Shown: positions 20,682 to 31,563 of the stretch, one piece after another
Layout: each line of letters opens with the position of its first letter
Position numbering within the stretch: position 1 is the first letter of the stretch
Source: Planctomycetota bacterium
GTDB lineage: Bacteria; Planctomycetota; UBA11346
Assembly (NCBI GenBank): GCA_014193115.1
Contig: BJHQ01000002.1
Coordinates: forward strand, 382,815 to 446,814
Length of the DNA stretch: 64,000 nucleotides
Reading direction: 5' to 3'
Program-made: the position numbers and the translations under genes
Notes under the pieces: model-generated
What the model saw: only the letters and a program-made list of their open reading frames with translations
Told to the model about the DNA's origin: nothing
Database searches by the model: none

Positions 20682-20783
20682 CCGGCTGGTTGTCCGCCTG
20701 GCACCTGCCCGGGGCAGCCCGATCCGGAAGAACTGGCACCACCTGCGGACGCACGGACAAGCCGAGCCGTTAGGATGCCGCCC

Positions 20784-21656
20784 ATGGACACCTTCCAACG
20801 CTACGAGTTCGACCGCCAGGGCTACCTCGTCCTCCGCAACCTGATCCCCGCCGACCTGGTCTCCCGCCTGAGCGCGACCGTGGAACGGATCGAGGAATCC
20901 GCCAGCGCGCTTGCGCCGGACGATCGTCCACACCGATCCCTGTGGGGCAGCACCTATCATCATGACCGGCGACAAGGGGTGCTGATCCACGGGCAGCGCA
21001 AGCAAGGTGGAACGTTCCTGATCGAGGATTTCTGGAACGCCGACCCGGTGTTCGATCAGCTCATCGATTTCCCGGCGACCATGGACATCGTCCGTGCGGT
21101 GGTGCGCGACCGGGTGACGATCAACAATTCCGAGATCCGGATCCGTTATCAGGGCAACTACACCGGAGCCCATATGGGCGGACCGATCGGCAAAAAATAC
21201 CAGTACCGCACTGATGTGGATGGCATCGACTGCACCATGGTGCGGATGGTGTATTTCCTTCAGCACGTCAAGGCAGAAGATGGAGCCTTTTCGGTGGTTC
21301 CGGGCACCCACAAAAGTGCTTTTCCGCCGCCGACAGCCAAATTGCCCGAAGATGAACCCGGCGCGATCCCGCTCGAAGTCGGACCTGGCGATGCGATCTT
21401 TTTCACTGAGCACCTGCGCCACGGCGGCTTCACCAACCGCGGCAATCAAACCCGCCGCACCCTGCACGTCGGCTACGGACCGTGCTGGATGCGTTCCCAG
21501 AACATCGCCACCATGGATGAGATGCCGTACCTGACCCCCGCGACCTGGGAGCGCCTGACTCCGGCGCGACGCGAGCTGTTCCTTGCCGGACCGATAGAGA
21601 ACCAAGGTTCACGCCTGCCCCACGGCAGCCGAGCGGCGCTGCTCTCGGCTGGCTGA
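20784..21656 (+). CDS. Phytanoyl-CoA dioxygenase (PhyH) family protein, HMG variant of the iron motif
   Basis: FDRQGYLVLRNLI; GNYTGAHMGGPIG; EDGAFSVVPGTHKSAF; EHLRHGGFTNRGNQTRRTLHVGY. Confidence 0.87.
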   Translation: MDTFQRYEFDRQGYLVLRNLIPADLVSRLSATVERIEESASALAPDDRPHRSLWGSTYHHDRRQGVLIHGQRKQGGTFLIEDFWNADPVFDQLIDFPATMDIVRAVVRDRVTINNSEIRIRYQGNYTGAHMGGPIGKKYQYRTDVDGIDCTMVRMVYFLQHVKAEDGAFSVVPGTHKSAFPPPTAKLPEDEPGAIPLEVGPGDAIFFTEHLRHGGFTNRGNQTRRTLHVGYGPCWMRSQNIATMDEMPYLTPATWERLTPARRELFLAGPIENQGSRLPHGSRAALLSAG

Positions 21657-21661
21657 CCGGG

Positions 21662-22525
21662 TCACTCGGCGGAGCGCGTCCGGGCGGCGAAGGCCGCTGG
21701 CGGTTCCCCAACCAGGCGGGAGAAGACCCTGGTGAAATGCTGCACGTTGGCGAACCCGGCGCGCCGTGCAGCGGCCTTGACGGTCATGCCGCCCCATTGC
21801 AGGTCGGCCTTTGCCCGTTCGATCCGCGATCTCCTCCGATAGGCCATCGGCGCCAAACCGTAGTGCCGGGTGAAGGCGGCGGCAAAGGCGCTACGGCCGA
21901 GATGGGCGACGGCGGCCACGTCTTCCAACCGAACCGGGCCATTGGCGTCGTCCAGATGGCGACGGGCTCGTTCAAGGTGCGGATCCGGCGCAGGCAGCGA
22001 CCCGCCGGATCCGAACCGGCGCAGCACCACCGCGAGCAGCTCCAGCATCGACGCCCGCTGGACCAGCAGGTCGGAACCAGCGGCCGCAGGCCAGGTCCGG
22101 GCCAGTCGGCGAAATGCGGCTACATACGCGGCTGGGGGGTGCACCGTCAGCACGTGGACCTGGTCGGCGGGCAATGGCCCTGGCGCCCCCGGCGGCCGGG
22201 GCCGACGGGCATCCTGATGCCAATGCACTGCCGTCGAATCCGCGCGCTGGGCCGGGTCGTAGTGGACGTTGAGCAGATTGACTCCGGAGAGTTCTTTGAG
22301 CGAAAACGCATGCTCGCGATCCGGCGGGACGACCAGGACTGTTCCCGGCCCCACGGCCTGATCCCGTCCGTCGGTTTGCAGGGTGCCCTCCCCGCGGTGG
22401 ATGTAGAGCAAGGCATGATCGTTTATGCGCCGTGCGGGCAGATGAAAAATCTGACCGGCCTGGAAATCGTGAACCAGCCGGACGAACGGAGCGCAACCGG
22501 CGATCGGATCGGCCATGCCGGACAT
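21662..22525 (-). CDS. AraC family transcriptional regulator
   Basis: VRLEDVAAVAHLGRSAFAAAFTRHYGLAPMAYRRRSRIERAKADL...TVKAAARRAGFANVQHFTRVFSRLVGEPPAAF. MSGMADP start at 22525 favoured over 22597. Confidence 0.9.
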   Translation of the reverse strand: MSGMADPIAGCAPFVRLVHDFQAGQIFHLPARRINDHALLYIHRGEGTLQTDGRDQAVGPGTVLVVPPDREHAFSLKELSGVNLLNVHYDPAQRADSTAVHWHQDARRPRPPGAPGPLPADQVHVLTVHPPAAYVAAFRRLARTWPAAAGSDLLVQRASMLELLAVVLRRFGSGGSLPAPDPHLERARRHLDDANGPVRLEDVAAVAHLGRSAFAAAFTRHYGLAPMAYRRRSRIERAKADLQWGGMTVKAAARRAGFANVQHFTRVFSRLVGEPPAAFAARTRSAE

Positions 22526-22715: not shown

Positions 22716-24164
22716 TCATTGAGCACTGACCGGTATGGGCGCCAGGATGGCTTCCTGACTTGGTCGCAGTTCGATCCGCTGGACGCCACCACTCGCTGGT
22801 CCAACGATGGCGTCGGTCGGCGCGATCGCAGTCCATAGATGCTGAGGCAGGACGACGAGCGTGATGATGCGGATGATCGCTCTGGCAGTGATGCTGAGTG
22901 GCGTCACTCCGGAGCTATCGACCCGCACGGTCTGGACGTCGGAGCTGTTCCCCAAGGTCCACGCTCCGACGGTGGCGGATCCGAAGGCATTGGTGAACGA
23001 TGAACCTCCGGCGACCGTGCCGCCACCGCTGGTGACCGTGTAGCTGATCGGAGCTCCGATCAGCGGATTGCGGAACCCATCGAGCAGGGCGACCGCAGGC
23101 GTGATTGGCAGGGTCTGGCCGGGCTCTGCGCTTTGGCCTGTTCCGGCAGTACAGGTGAAGCGCGCACCCAGGGTCTTGTACCAGACGATATTCGCGGATT
23201 TGTACGAGCCGCCGCTGATCCGATCATTGTCCGTCACGGTGAAGAACCAACCATCGCCCGGAGTTCCATCGGGGCGGCGTGCCGGGGTCACGGCGATGCC
23301 CTCGACGTTTCCGGATTGCGGACCAGTGAAGATGGCCAATTGCTGCAGACGCAGGCTTCCGACCGTGCCGGTGGAGGTCAGGCTGGTGACCTCGATCGGA
23401 TTTGCACCCGTGTTATGGGAGATGAACAGCCGGTGGTTGCTGCGATCGAATGCCAGACCGCTGGATTCCCCCGCCCCGGTCAGGAAGCGACCCAGGTAGG
23501 TCGCTGCCGAGGTGGCGGATGCCGAGGTGGCGGGCAGGTCGTAGGCATAGACATAGCCGCCATTCTGTGACGCGATCAGGAAGATGCCCCCCAGACCGCC
23601 CTGTGAGGCTGGATAGGCGGTGCCAACATCAGGCACACCATCACCCTTACGGAAGCCGCTTGCGCTCAGAGAAGCATCGGGAACGAAGGTCAGTCCTTCC
23701 GGGCCGCTGTTCCCGGACGAGACCAGACTGGTCGCCATGCCGGTGTAGTCGGTGATCTTCGCCCCGGTATCGGCCCGGTACGACGTCACCTTCTCCGGTC
23801 CTTCGTGCAGAATGTAGAAGATATTGTCATCCATCGCCTGGGTGATGCCTTCCCCGTCGCTGCCGATAGCAAAACGGTGGACGGCGGTGAATGCGGTTCC
23901 CGCCGGATTGGCTTGGAACGCATAGACGTAGGTTCCGGATCGGGCGTCCGCGGTCCACAATTGCCGGGTATTGGCATTCCAGAAGGCATCGCTCATCTCG
24001 TAGAAATCCGCAGCCGTAGTCAGACTAACGGTGGCCGAAGACAGCGCTGCCGGAGTCAGGTCGGTCGCCTGAGCCACGGTCTCGCCTGGCCAGGGTTCAC
24101 TGGCAACCAGGTGGCTGGCGCAGATGCCGAGCAGCAGACTGAGCAGCCGACGAATGGTCATCAT
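22716..24164 (-). CDS. Secreted SdiA-regulated/phytase-like beta-propeller protein with a C-terminal Ig-like segment
   Basis: Signal MMTIRRLLSLLLGICASHLVASEP; propeller segments FIGS...GEGITQAMDDNIFYILHEGPEKVTSYR, GESSGLAFDRSNHRLFISHNTG; C-terminal NPLIGAPISYTVTSGGGTVAGGSSFTNAFGSATVGAWTLG. Confidence 0.65.
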   Translation of the reverse strand: MMTIRRLLSLLLGICASHLVASEPWPGETVAQATDLTPAALSSATVSLTTAADFYEMSDAFWNANTRQLWTADARSGTYVYAFQANPAGTAFTAVHRFAIGSDGEGITQAMDDNIFYILHEGPEKVTSYRADTGAKITDYTGMATSLVSSGNSGPEGLTFVPDASLSASGFRKGDGVPDVGTAYPASQGGLGGIFLIASQNGGYVYAYDLPATSASATSAATYLGRFLTGAGESSGLAFDRSNHRLFISHNTGANPIEVTSLTSTGTVGSLRLQQLAIFTGPQSGNVEGIAVTPARRPDGTPGDGWFFTVTDNDRISGGSYKSANIVWYKTLGARFTCTAGTGQSAEPGQTLPITPAVALLDGFRNPLIGAPISYTVTSGGGTVAGGSSFTNAFGSATVGAWTLGNSSDVQTVRVDSSGVTPLSITARAIIRIITLVVLPQHLWTAIAPTDAIVGPASGGVQRIELRPSQEAILAPIPVSAQ

Positions 24165-24303
24165 GGACTGATTCTCCTCAACCACTGGTGTCGCCTCCAA
24201 CCGTCCCGTCACAGGAACTTGAACCGGGTCGATGCCGGCCCACCCTGAGTTTGAAGTGAACCTGGTGCGTGACGGATCACAGGGTGGCGACACCAGTCAG
24301 CAG

Positions 24304-24852
24304 ATGGACTTGCCCAACCTCTGCCGCCTGGCCGCACAAGGGGATGCCATGGCCTTCACCCGTCTGGTCGATGCAACCCAGGATGACCTGATGCCCCTGG
24401 CCTGCCTGTTGACCCATGACTCCACCCTGGCGGAGGATTGTCTGCAGGAATGCTACATGATCGCCTGGAGAAAACGCTCGGTGCTGGACGGGATCCGTGA
24501 TCCGGCCGCCTGGCTGCGCGTGGTCCTGCGCCAGGTCGCCGCCAACGCGCGACGGCGACGCGACACCCTCCGGGCCCACGAACGTCCGCTGATCGAAGGA
24601 CTGGTGACGGCACAGAGCGAGCTGACCGAACTGGCCGAGGACTGGGGGGCCGAGCTGGTGGCCCGGTTGCGCAGCTGCGTCGAAGGCCTCTCACCGACCG
24701 CCAGGCATCTGGTCGAGGCCCATTATCGCGAAGGGACTCCATTGAACGAACTCGCAACCGAGGCTGGACGCAGCGCATCGTGGAGCCGTATGACCCTGCT
24801 GCGCATCCGCCAGGTTCTTGCGACCTGCCTGGCCAGGGCTGCCCAACCGTGA
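24304..24852 (+). CDS. ECF-type RNA polymerase sigma factor
   Basis: Region 2 (AFTRLVDATQDDLMPLACLLTHDSTLAEDCLQECYMIAWRKR) and region 4 (LSPTARHLVEAHYREGTPLNELATEAGRSASWSRMTLLRIRQVL). Could start at 24232. Confidence 0.85.
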   Translation: MDLPNLCRLAAQGDAMAFTRLVDATQDDLMPLACLLTHDSTLAEDCLQECYMIAWRKRSVLDGIRDPAAWLRVVLRQVAANARRRRDTLRAHERPLIEGLVTAQSELTELAEDWGAELVARLRSCVEGLSPTARHLVEAHYREGTPLNELATEAGRSASWSRMTLLRIRQVLATCLARAAQP

Positions 24853-24866
24853 CAGGACGATCCGAC

Positions 24867-26261
24867 ATGGCCACCGACCCGAGTGATGAACCGTCGCCGG
24901 TTGAAGACCAGGCGACCGAAGACGTGCAGGATCTCCTGCCATTGCTGTATCGGCCCCGTCCCGATCTGGCCAGCCGGGTCCGCCGGGCCATCGACCGCGA
25001 GCGTTTCCGCCGGGTCGTGCTGGCTGCCGCAGCGGTGCTCGCCCTGATCTTCGGCGCCATCATCTGGTCGATGGCGACGACCCGGGCAGACCATGAACCA
25101 CGCTCGTCCACTGGGGTTGTCGCCGTTGCCGGGACCTCCCTGGGCGAGGCCACGGTCGAGACTCGCTGGAGTTGGGGCCTGACAGCAGCCAAATTTGCTC
25201 TGGCCCCTGGCACCGTGGCCCGGGCCGGTGCTGAACCAGGCCTGATCGACCTGACCGCGGGATCGATCACGGCGAGCGTGGACCACAGCCGCCAGCGCCA
25301 AGCGCTGGTCATCCGCACTCCGCATGCGGTGGCGACCGTGATCGGGACGGTATTCACCATCCGGGTCGATGCCCGGACGACCCGACTGACGGTTGAAAGC
25401 GGATCGGTGAGGTTCTCCTTTGCCGACCGCAACGAGGTGGTCAGTGGTCCGGGAATGATGGAGACTCCGGCACCGATCGCCGTGGCACCCACCAGCTGGA
25501 CCGTGCGCGAACTCAGCCGCTGGATCATCACCGACCGGCGGCTGCGGGAATTGAGCGCCCTGGCCGTCGACCCGATGCACCCTGATCGTCTTTGGGGATG
25601 CGGCGATCACGGCAACCCGGCCTCGTTGTTCGCCATCGACCCTGGCACCCAGCGGATCACCGAATACCCGGTTGCCCGAGCGGTGAACCATGATTGGGAG
25701 GATCTGGCCCCGATGGTGATGGATGGTCGGCCGCTGGTGGCGATCGGCGATATCGGGAAAAGCCGGAAGAATCAGCCCGCCAGGATCCTCTTGGTCGAGG
25801 CGGACCCACCGCTGGCGGTCCAGCAGACCCTGGTCATCAACCTGCCGGCTGACGTGATCGATCTCGACTGCCTGGCCTGGGATGCCAGGGAACAGTCCTT
25901 CTATCTGGTGGGCAAGGATGGCGACCACCCGGTCCTGCGCTGTCCGTTCACGACCCAGGAAACGACCACGGCGAGCGTGGTCGGAGCAGTCGTGGCCCGG
26001 CGACCAGCGGCCTTGGCCATCGATACCTCAGCCGAACGGATGGCGCTCTTGGATGAGGACGGAACCATCACCTTCTTCGGCCGGACCGGCGGCGTTTGGG
26101 ATCTGGCCAGGCCCCGCGGCTCCTGGGTGGTCAGCGGCATTCCCATTGCCCAAGCCCTCGCCTGGAGCGATGCCGGTACCCGGTTGTGGGTCAGCGGCGA
26201 AGGCCCCACCAAACCGCTGTGCCAACTTGCCGTCGAGGCCCATCAACACGGGGATTTTTGA
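24867..26261 (+). CDS. Membrane-anchored FecR-like protein with a C-terminal beta-propeller
   Basis: TM helix RRVVLAAAAVLALIFGAIIWSMA; FecR core LTAGSITASVDHSRQRQALVIRTPHAVATVIGTVFTIRVDARTTRLTVESGSVRFSF; C-terminal LWGCGDHGNPASLFAIDPG...HDWEDLAPM...VAIGDIGKSRKNQPARI. An in-frame GTG at 24849 overlaps the sigma-factor stop. Confidence 0.8.
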   Translation: MATDPSDEPSPVEDQATEDVQDLLPLLYRPRPDLASRVRRAIDRERFRRVVLAAAAVLALIFGAIIWSMATTRADHEPRSSTGVVAVAGTSLGEATVETRWSWGLTAAKFALAPGTVARAGAEPGLIDLTAGSITASVDHSRQRQALVIRTPHAVATVIGTVFTIRVDARTTRLTVESGSVRFSFADRNEVVSGPGMMETPAPIAVAPTSWTVRELSRWIITDRRLRELSALAVDPMHPDRLWGCGDHGNPASLFAIDPGTQRITEYPVARAVNHDWEDLAPMVMDGRPLVAIGDIGKSRKNQPARILLVEADPPLAVQQTLVINLPADVIDLDCLAWDAREQSFYLVGKDGDHPVLRCPFTTQETTTASVVGAVVARRPAALAIDTSAERMALLDEDGTITFFGRTGGVWDLARPRGSWVVSGIPIAQALAWSDAGTRLWVSGEGPTKPLCQLAVEAHQHGDF

Positions 26262-28900: not shown

Positions 28901-28923
28901 ATACCTGCATACCATGCAGGTAT
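28901..28923. promoter_or_regulatory. Operator-like perfect inverted repeat overlapping the PhyH start codon
   Basis: ATACCTGCAT-ACC-ATGCAGGTAT, 10-bp arms; the ATG of the 28922 CDS lies in the right arm. Confidence 0.65.
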
Positions 28924-29866
28924 GAACGCCCCCCTCCGCCAGCCCGCCACTGCTTCTGTCCAGGTTGCTGATGCCGTCTCTGACGCCCAGGTGAGATCCT
29001 TCGTCGACGACGGTTTCCTGGTCGTTCCTGATCTGGTCGCGCCGGCTGAGATCGAGTTGCTCAAGCGGGACACCGCCGACCTCGCCCGGGGCAAGTATCC
29101 CTGCAAGAGCCTCCAACCGCTGCCAGCGGACCTGGATGACCAGCAGGTGCTGGAAAGCCTGCTGTGCATCCACCAACCCCACAACGTCAGTCCGGTGATC
29201 AAGGATTTCGTCACCCACGCCGGCATCTGTGGGGTCCTTGGGCGGATCGTCGCTGCCCACCTGCCGCACTGGGACGGGGCGGTGAAATGCATGCAATCCA
29301 TGCTGTTCGTGAAGCCACCAGGCAAACCAGGCCAGGCCTGGCACCAGGACGAGATGTACATTCCGACCCGCGATCGCAGCCTGTGCGGAGCCTGGATCGC
29401 CATTGATGACGCCACCATCGAGAACGGCTGCCTGTGGGTGGTTCCCGGATCGCATCGCGATGGTTATCTGTTCCCGTCGAAGTCCCCTGAAGATCTGGTC
29501 GAGTATGATGGCTCCAACCAATGCTACGAATTCGACGAAGCGAAAGCCGTCCCGGTCGAAGTGAAAAGCGGATCCGTGGTCTTCTTCAATGGCTACCTGC
29601 TCCATAAATCCCTGCGCAACCGCAGCACGATCTATCGTCGGGCCCTGGTCAGCCACTACATGAACTCGTGGTCGCTGCTGCCCTGGTCGATCCCTAAGGA
29701 AGGAACCTCGGTGGCTACCGCCGACATCCGCCGCGTGATCCAGGTCTGCGGCACCGATCCGTACGCTCACAAAGGCTATGATCCCCCTGGCGATGATGTC
29801 CACCTGCGTAAATGGGGCGAAGCGTGGCAGAAGGTCAAAGCTGCTGCGGCGGTCCCAAAAAGTTGA
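28922..29866 (+). CDS. Phytanoyl-CoA dioxygenase (PhyH) family protein, canonical HxD
   Basis: FVDDGFLVVPDLV; KPPGKPGQAWHQDEMYIPTRD; NGCLWVVPGSHRDG; YLLHKSLRNRSTIYRRALVSHY. Confidence 0.92.
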   Translation: MNAPLRQPATASVQVADAVSDAQVRSFVDDGFLVVPDLVAPAEIELLKRDTADLARGKYPCKSLQPLPADLDDQQVLESLLCIHQPHNVSPVIKDFVTHAGICGVLGRIVAAHLPHWDGAVKCMQSMLFVKPPGKPGQAWHQDEMYIPTRDRSLCGAWIAIDDATIENGCLWVVPGSHRDGYLFPSKSPEDLVEYDGSNQCYEFDEAKAVPVEVKSGSVVFFNGYLLHKSLRNRSTIYRRALVSHYMNSWSLLPWSIPKEGTSVATADIRRVIQVCGTDPYAHKGYDPPGDDVHLRKWGEAWQKVKAAAAVPKS

Positions 29867-29990: not shown

Positions 29991-31439
29991 TCAGCCTGGT
30001 GCTGTGTCCGACCGCACGCCGGACAGATCGATGCCGGGCACGTCCTCGCACACCACGGCTGGGCGCACGTCACTCGATGCCAGGCGGAATCGGACCCGTT
30101 GCAACACCAGGTCGTCGACGTGGCGTGCGAACAGGGCGTAGGCAGGCGGTACACCGAACATGAACGGAGTCGGATAGGTACGGTCTAGCTCAGGGATCGG
30201 CCGGGCCGCGTCTTCGAGGGTGCCGCCGCCAGGATAGGTGACATCGATCTGGTCAAAGGTGATGCGCGCTGGCCGGGTAGCCGTTGTTCCGGTCACGGTG
30301 ATGCAGGTTTTCTCATTGGCTTTGAAGGTGCGGCTCTCCTTGGGTGTGCCTTCCAGGAAATAGCGCGGCACCCGTGCCCGGATGTTGCTGAACAGCACGT
30401 CGCTGAGGCTGCCCTCCTGCCAGCGGCTGTCGTCCAGGAACCACGGCTTCACATTGTCGTCGCCATCGCGCCAACCGCCAAGGCGGATCGAGATCGGATT
30501 GCACACCCTGTCCATCACCAGGTTGGCGAAGACCAGGTCGCGGATGCGGCCGCCGTGGGCCACTTGCAGGCAGATGCCACCCATTCCGGTATCACGGATG
30601 AGGCAATTGCTCACCGTGACCCGTTCGATGTCGGCCAGGGTTTCCGGCCCGACCCGGATCGCCTGGCAATAGGAACTGAGCTGGCAATCGCTGACGGTCA
30701 CGTCGCGGCACGGGAAACCCGGCCTGGTGGCTTTCAACGCGATGCTGTCATCGCTGGTGGTGATCGAACACCGGGTCACGAAGACCTCTGAGCATCCGTC
30801 GATGTCCAGTCCATCGTTGGTGGCATGATCGACGCTGCGGATGGTCAAATCCTGGTAGCGCACCTGCTGGCAGCCGATGGCGTGGATGGTCCACGAAGGC
30901 CCATCGCGCAGCGACAGGTCTTGGACCCGGACCTGGCGACAATCGCGGAAACGCACCAGGACCGGTCGCGACGCCGCCATCTTCTTTTCGAACCGGCCCG
31001 CATTCCCATCGATCGTGCCGGTGCCGGTGATGGCGACATCGGTGCACTCCTGGGCGAAAATCAGGACCTGGCCGATGATGCCCGGGGCATAGGTCTGCTG
31101 GTCGTCGCGGTCATACGCGCCCAAGTCGGGACTTCCGAGCAAGGTCGCTCCCCCAGCCACATGCAGGGTGACGTGGGAGCGCAGATGCAGGGTTCCCGTG
31201 ACGAAGGTTCCGCCGCCACCCAACACCACACGGCCGCCGCCCTGGGCTGCAACCGCGTCGATGGCGCGCTGGATGGCGACGGTGTCGATGGTGCGGCCAT
31301 CGCCGACCGCACCGAACGACCGGACATCGGCCGCATGGGGATCGGTTACAGACTGGTGAGCTTCGGGCATGCCTGAACTTGGACCGTTCGGTGCATCCGA
31401 CAATGCCCGATCGGAGCCGCGAGTGGACGTCAGATGCAT
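29991..31439 (-). CDS. GH28 (polygalacturonase-type) right-handed beta-helix glycoside hydrolase
   Basis: VRSFGAVGDGRTIDTVAIQRAIDA; GTGTIDGNAG; DHATNDGLDIDGCSEVFVTRCSITTSDDSIALK matches the GH28 NTDGxDxxxS / DDxxxxK region. Start uncertain (31502, 31439 or 31370). Confidence 0.9.
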   Translation of the reverse strand: MHLTSTRGSDRALSDAPNGPSSGMPEAHQSVTDPHAADVRSFGAVGDGRTIDTVAIQRAIDAVAAQGGGRVVLGGGGTFVTGTLHLRSHVTLHVAGGATLLGSPDLGAYDRDDQQTYAPGIIGQVLIFAQECTDVAITGTGTIDGNAGRFEKKMAASRPVLVRFRDCRQVRVQDLSLRDGPSWTIHAIGCQQVRYQDLTIRSVDHATNDGLDIDGCSEVFVTRCSITTSDDSIALKATRPGFPCRDVTVSDCQLSSYCQAIRVGPETLADIERVTVSNCLIRDTGMGGICLQVAHGGRIRDLVFANLVMDRVCNPISIRLGGWRDGDDNVKPWFLDDSRWQEGSLSDVLFSNIRARVPRYFLEGTPKESRTFKANEKTCITVTGTTATRPARITFDQIDVTYPGGGTLEDAARPIPELDRTYPTPFMFGVPPAYALFARHVDDLVLQRVRFRLASSDVRPAVVCEDVPGIDLSGVRSDTAPG

Positions 31440-31563
31440 GAGGACCGCCGTGCGGATCACCCAAGTCGAACTGCGATCGGCCGTTCCTGATGGCGGCTCC
31501 ACATGGCGGCAAGGCAGGATTTGTCCTGGGATCTCGCTGACAAAACCGAGCAGACCGAGAATT

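Follow-up and report, generated by a model that had tools for sequence, protein, structure and literature searches.

In the FecI/FecR/FecA and PupI/PupR/PupB systems, the gene for an ECF sigma factor is followed by one for a single-pass FecR protein with a FecR core. The periplasmic fragment of PupR has two subdomains, both of which are required for binding the signalling domain of the transducer (PMC9249621). The RsgI anti-sigma factors of Clostridium thermocellum carry outer CBM3, CBM42, 2xPA14 or GH10 domains, bind polysaccharides and control the matching enzymes; the GH10 domain of RsgI6 shows very little activity and functions in binding (PMC4711584). Sigma output is joined through a transmembrane (TM) segment to an outer regulatory domain in IutY and SCO4117 (ECF52), and ECF57 sigma factors have WD40-like repeats in their C-terminal extension (PMC9249621, PMC8999054).

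The locus described here lies in a 64,000-nucleotide stretch of Planctomycetota DNA (the window). As in the FecI and PupI systems, an ECF sigma factor gene precedes the gene for a single-pass FecR protein with a FecR core, and RseP-type processing is likely. The unit differs from these systems in having no FecR_C subdomain and no STN transducer, and in carrying a beta-propeller in place of the transducer-contact subdomain. Unlike in IutY, ECF52 and ECF57, the sigma factor and the putative sensor are here parts of different proteins, with FecR as the connection. On balance, we think it probable that the two genes constitute a transmembrane ECF sigma signalling unit in which the propeller is the input.

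Gene order and layout of the sigma–FecR pair

The features of the locus, together with those of a related fusion from another genome, are collected in Table 1. The sigma factor ORF, which might begin further upstream at an in-frame ATG (24232), has the make-up of an ECF sigma factor, with Sigma-70 regions 2 and 4 only in about 180 residues, region 4 being weakly matched. It matches Pfam Sigma70_r2 above the cut-off (6.3e-9), Sigma70_r4_2 below it (0.016, 15 bits), and the TIGR02937 superfamily model with 56.8 bits against a cut-off of 42.9. Its best NCBIfam match, TIGR02989 (the Rhodopirellula/Verrucomicrobium sigma family; 1e-23), falls under the curated cut-off of that model. A FecR gene is listed behind seven of the ten best non-self relatives of this sigma factor.

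Table 1. Positions of the features discussed (window coordinates unless a contig is named)
Feature	Position	Strand	Remarks
ECF sigma factor gene	24304..24852	+	182 aa, regions 2 and 4; Sigma70_r2 and TIGR02989 matches
FecR-propeller fusion gene	24849..26261	+	470 aa, single-pass; overlaps the sigma gene (GTGA)
Cytosolic N-terminus, ~55 aa	24849..25014	+	match to the sibling N-terminal module confined to its model positions 71-131
Single transmembrane helix	25014..25082	+	hydropathy mean 2.58; long helix 38-80 in the predicted model
FecR core, PF04773 positions 37-97	25227..25412	+	Pfam 2.3e-8; own profile 2.2e-19
C-terminal beta-propeller, DWED/GDIGDN family	25539..26258	+	family homology, profile match, fold matches
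Divergent neighbour, signal-peptide protein	22716..24167	-	weak phytase-like/SdiA-regulated propeller similarity; weak Big_1 match
ECF sigma-propeller fusion (G281:C422)	L171:1240-2988	-	sigma regions 2 and 4, TM-like segment and DWED-family propeller in one frame

The initial annotation had read the locus as an ECF sigma/FecR pair whose second gene starts at an in-frame GTG (24849) overlapping the sigma stop codon, and both points hold: the Sigma70_r2 and PF04773 matches identify the pair, and the stop codon is the TGA at 24850-24852. The two genes look like a two-gene operon, because a tRNA-Gln gene and unrelated genes lie downstream. The short N-terminus, single TM helix (residues ~56-78) and FecR core (residues 127-188) that it described for the second protein are likewise present, the core scoring 34.8 bits against a PF04773 gathering score of 24 and thus belonging to that family. 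The ~240 C-terminal residues fall into no Pfam family. GC3 is high and even over all parts of the 470-codon frame, so that the whole of it looks coding.

The C-terminal propeller and its relatives

The propeller, which occupies residues ~231-470, is homologous to stand-alone proteins in relatives, in Dyadobacter, in Jatrophihabitans and elsewhere. These form a widespread secreted family without a Pfam model of its own; judged by eye, most stand-alone members start with a signal peptide. The motifs E.SG, NDSG, DWED, GD(I/V)GDN, D.E and a C-terminal SE are common to these proteins. The window propeller matches the family profile with an E-value of 8e-77 (the query being included in the profile), at pairwise identities of 20-31% to stand-alone members. 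It has no match at the gathering scores of the Pfam SdiA-regulated and Phytase-like models, which its relatives match only below threshold, and a scan of viral contigs found no further relatives.

The nearest solved relative by profile is E. coli YjiK (SdiA-regulated family; 3QQZ, 2.4e-4), to which the propeller family is distantly related. Among the structure matches listed, 3QQZ also has the highest target-normalised TM-score (0.47), at ~12% identity over the fold match. YjiK stands alone, unlike the domain in the window fusion. A first full-length model was poor except for the TM helix and part of the propeller. In two AlphaFold runs with five sequences, a reasonably confident all-beta region (pLDDT mostly 70-90) extends only over residues ~231-390, with low confidence for residues 380-470. 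Foldseek matches of the models are overwhelmingly propellers (LRP4/LRP6, LRRK2 WD40, CyRPA, Vps11, 6-phosphogluconolactonase, TolB and YjiK), and the propeller call therefore stands. The initial annotation had proposed this fold and suggested a domain search as a check. Homology to the secreted family, the 3QQZ match and the fold matches all support it, with the limits corrected to those given above.

The window copy is divergent. Of 28 columns with a conservation of 80% or more, it departs from the family at 14, against 0-13 departures in the 72 other copies, and keeps the most conserved positions (DWED, GDIG). A Glu found without exception in those 72 copies has given way to Asp in the window and to Asn in the G281 fusion of Table 1. 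The changes at conserved residues are consistent with a captured domain that may have kept its fold and lost its ancestral function. They would fit a change of role comparable to that of the RsgI6 GH10 domain (PMC4711584), although, in a propeller as divergent overall as that of the window, the two sigma-linked Glu replacements are not proof of one.

By profile search, the propeller is present in 83 of 392 genomes of the phylum. Fusions were surveyed by inspecting all listed propeller matches with an open frame of at least 430 aa as well as the 30 best, and among these the window protein is the only one with a FecR in frame with a propeller. Conservation therefore cannot vouch for the fusion. 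In G281, the propeller is instead fused to the sigma factor itself, and the gene directly behind, which overlaps with it, encodes a stand-alone propeller from the same family. This protein resembles the C-terminally extended sigma factors IutY, SCO4117 (ECF52) and ECF57. As judged from these two fusions, ECF signalling and the DWED-family propeller have been joined independently at least twice, by different routes. A domain without a known ligand has thus been linked twice to this type of signalling.

Swapped FecR domains and the probable lack of TonB coupling

The listing of FecR matches for 23 genomes of the taxonomic family runs to more than 150 entries. Our census took in 65 FecR ORFs from three gene-rich genomes of this family, the genome to which the window belongs and a few others. 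An ECF sigma ORF lies directly upstream on the same strand in 64 of the 65 cases, among them all six FecR genes over the cut-off in the window's own genome. The survey for sigma/FecR-propeller neighbours proposed by the initial annotation thus returned abundant sigma/FecR pairs, and the fusion to a propeller only here among 392 genomes. Every census ORF continues for 127-610 residues past the FecR core, and these C-termini fall into 29 sequence clusters (E 1e-3). Pfam matches on them include PA14 (7), Laminin_G_3 (6), beta-helix, 3keto-disac_hyd, GH10, CBM96, CBM11, NPCBM and IU_nuc_hydro, among others. The propeller unit is a singular member of this wider sensor-swapping FecR repertoire, which runs through the lineage.

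Several other loci were noted along the way. In G015:C69, a FecR with a GH10 domain (L095:158-2830, -), the outer-domain type of RsgI6 in C. thermocellum, is encoded in an ECF sigma operon, and an ORF similar to the PA14-type C-termini adjoins its gene. In G015:C60, a beta-helix FecR gene (L099:3-1190, -) lies beside a divergent gene for a homologue (L099:1620-3527, +; 1.6e-47), which makes the two a candidate sensor/target pair. A sensor domain resembling the product of a neighbouring gene was seen in only two of the 65 census loci, which is suggestive at best. In the window's own genome, the C6 sigma gene is followed by one for a divergent TM protein whose C-terminal domain falls below FecR detection.

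FecR_C (PF16344), the subdomain that contacts the transducer, is absent from the window protein, from all 65 census C-termini and from the window's own genome (94% complete). No STN domain in that genome exceeds the cut-off; two matches below it lie in other places, neither of them on a plug protein. In the census FecRs, a variable domain takes the place of the second subdomain of a PupR-type protein. The unit accordingly belongs neither to the TonB-coupled FecR class nor to systems with a FecIR-type STN transducer. A conventional FecIR arrangement, in which a TonB-dependent transducer still drives FecR and the propeller is an accessory, could draw on the FecR core and on the five TonB plug proteins encoded in the genome. 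None of these is near the sigma–FecR locus, however, and no receptor gene was found in its neighbourhood. Together with the absence of FecR_C from protein and genome and of above-threshold STN domains, on plug proteins or elsewhere, this makes that arrangement very improbable, and we disfavour it.

With swapped C-terminal domains, no FecR_C and no STN above the cut-off, the arrangement would work like RsgI, with FecR as the adapter. As in SigI/RsgI, a sigma factor gene is paired in an operon with one for a putative anti-sigma protein, and PA14, GH10 and CBMs are among the exchangeable outer domains of the census FecRs; the window system differs in its ECF sigma class, its periplasmic FecR adapter and its N-terminal module. 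It is not a member of the RsgI group, as its sigma factor is of the ECF type and neither Pfam nor NCBIfam gives an RsgI-type match. The initial annotation had regarded the propeller as a direct input in a different input architecture. Direct input, with the propeller replacing contact to a TonB transducer, is plausible given the missing FecR_C and STN domains; the architecture is not a one-off, because sibling FecRs of the taxonomic family bear many different swapped C-terminal domains.

Enzyme-like domains among these siblings (GH10, IU_nuc_hydro) would also suit a propeller that is a membrane-tethered enzyme or binding protein, with a signal such as envelope stress or proteolysis acting on the FecR core instead. 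Since the window copy is changed at the invariant Glu and at further polar residues that the stand-alone family conserves, and since the recurrence of a single adapter with many different outer domains is to be expected under sensor swapping, we judge this unlikely. A broader reading, to which we give about an even chance, is that FecR in this family was uncoupled from TonB transducers and is now a plug-and-play adapter for dozens of unrelated outer domains, captured from secreted enzymes and binding proteins and each a dedicated sensor; the window propeller would have lost ancestral conserved residues and the sigma contact would have shrunk to a short membrane-proximal segment. The repertoire suggests that many outside substances are sensed with one standard adapter in this bacterial family. 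If so, FecR would be a general periplasmic adapter tied neither to iron nor to TonB signalling, and each outer domain, as with those of RsgI, would hint at what the bacterium senses, so that for dozens of sigma factors in this poorly explored lineage both ligands and regulons could be predicted directly. Our literature search, which did not take in the principal paper on ECF classification (doi 10.1093/nar/gkaa1229), found nothing on FecR proteins with PA14, LamG or propeller domains.

Sigma binding, proposed signalling route and gene neighbourhood

In the signalling unit that we favour, the FecR protein would be anchored in the inner membrane. Its core and propeller would face the periplasm, whereas its short N-terminus would lie in the cytoplasm and hold or chaperone the sigma factor. 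The propeller, probably recruited from the secreted family to the place of FecR_C, would serve as the input and bind either a ligand or a partner protein. This signal would in turn free or activate the sigma factor, probably through regulated proteolysis by an RseP-like site-2 protease; the genome encodes an M50 site-2 protease candidate (732-aa frame).

Sigma binding is the weakest link of this route, since ~70 positions at the start of the siblings' N-terminal module are missing from the window protein. The siblings carry a conserved helical module (DGxLs helices; consensus LLEAYLDGTLSEAERAELAAALEADPAARRELLALLRLHALL) and have a median cytosolic N-terminus of ~93 aa, against ~55 aa in the window protein. 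Siblings with an intact module (model positions ~7-130) score 29.6-88.6 bits, whereas the window protein matches positions 71-131 only (22.5 bits) and so lacks the full DGxL module. A start at GTG 24780 would add 23 aa but no DGxL module, and there is no earlier ATG, GTG or TTG in frame. A FecR-less single-pass protein encoded directly behind another ECF sigma gene (G000:C4, L068:4370-4963, -) carries the same module (63 bits). Because of this occurrence, the DGxL module is likely to be the sigma-binding part, and it suggests an anti-sigma domain specific to the lineage, for which Pfam has no model. The initial annotation was thus right that the N-terminus is short, while the missing module weakens the case for sigma binding.

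Either the membrane-proximal half of the module suffices, or the window unit is decoupled. In the second case, the FecR-propeller protein would have lost its sigma-binding module and would no longer control the sigma factor, or would survive only as a membrane-anchored periplasmic binding protein. This would agree with the truncated N-terminus, with the alteration of half of the conserved propeller columns and with the finding that the genomes surveyed yield no orthologous fusion. However, the frame is open over 470 codons with normal coding GC3, the overlap with the sigma gene is kept, and so are the DWED and GDIG residues. According to work cited in an mSystems study (PMC7406223), sigma activity requires the 59 N-terminal residues of E. 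coli FecR; even a short N-terminus can thus be important, and its length does not by itself disqualify the protein. We regard decoupling as unlikely and retain the signalling unit as the preferred reading.

The divergent neighbour is the most obvious candidate for a target of the sigma factor. Three further genomes of the phylum encode homologues of it, with no sigma or FecR gene detected on the short stretches examined. It was considered as a further member of the propeller family, but the propeller profile gives no match, and when profiles are compared the alignment is confined to a short segment at the N-terminus (probability 41%); that the sensor matches its target gene is therefore unproven here. 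A common ECF promoter motif was also sought upstream of the census sigma genes, GGAACTT at 24214 included, and rejected: GGAAC occurs in 19 of 64 regions, where 13.6 would be expected, and in 6 on the other strand, and no gapped -35/-10 pattern upstream of these genes rises above shuffles. A tRNA-Ala(CGC) call at 21997-22073 (-) lies inside a same-strand AraC-type regulator gene and is probably a false positive. Genes for two PhyH-type oxygenases and for a GH28 polygalacturonase-like protein flank the region (20775-21656, 28922-29866 and 29991-31502).
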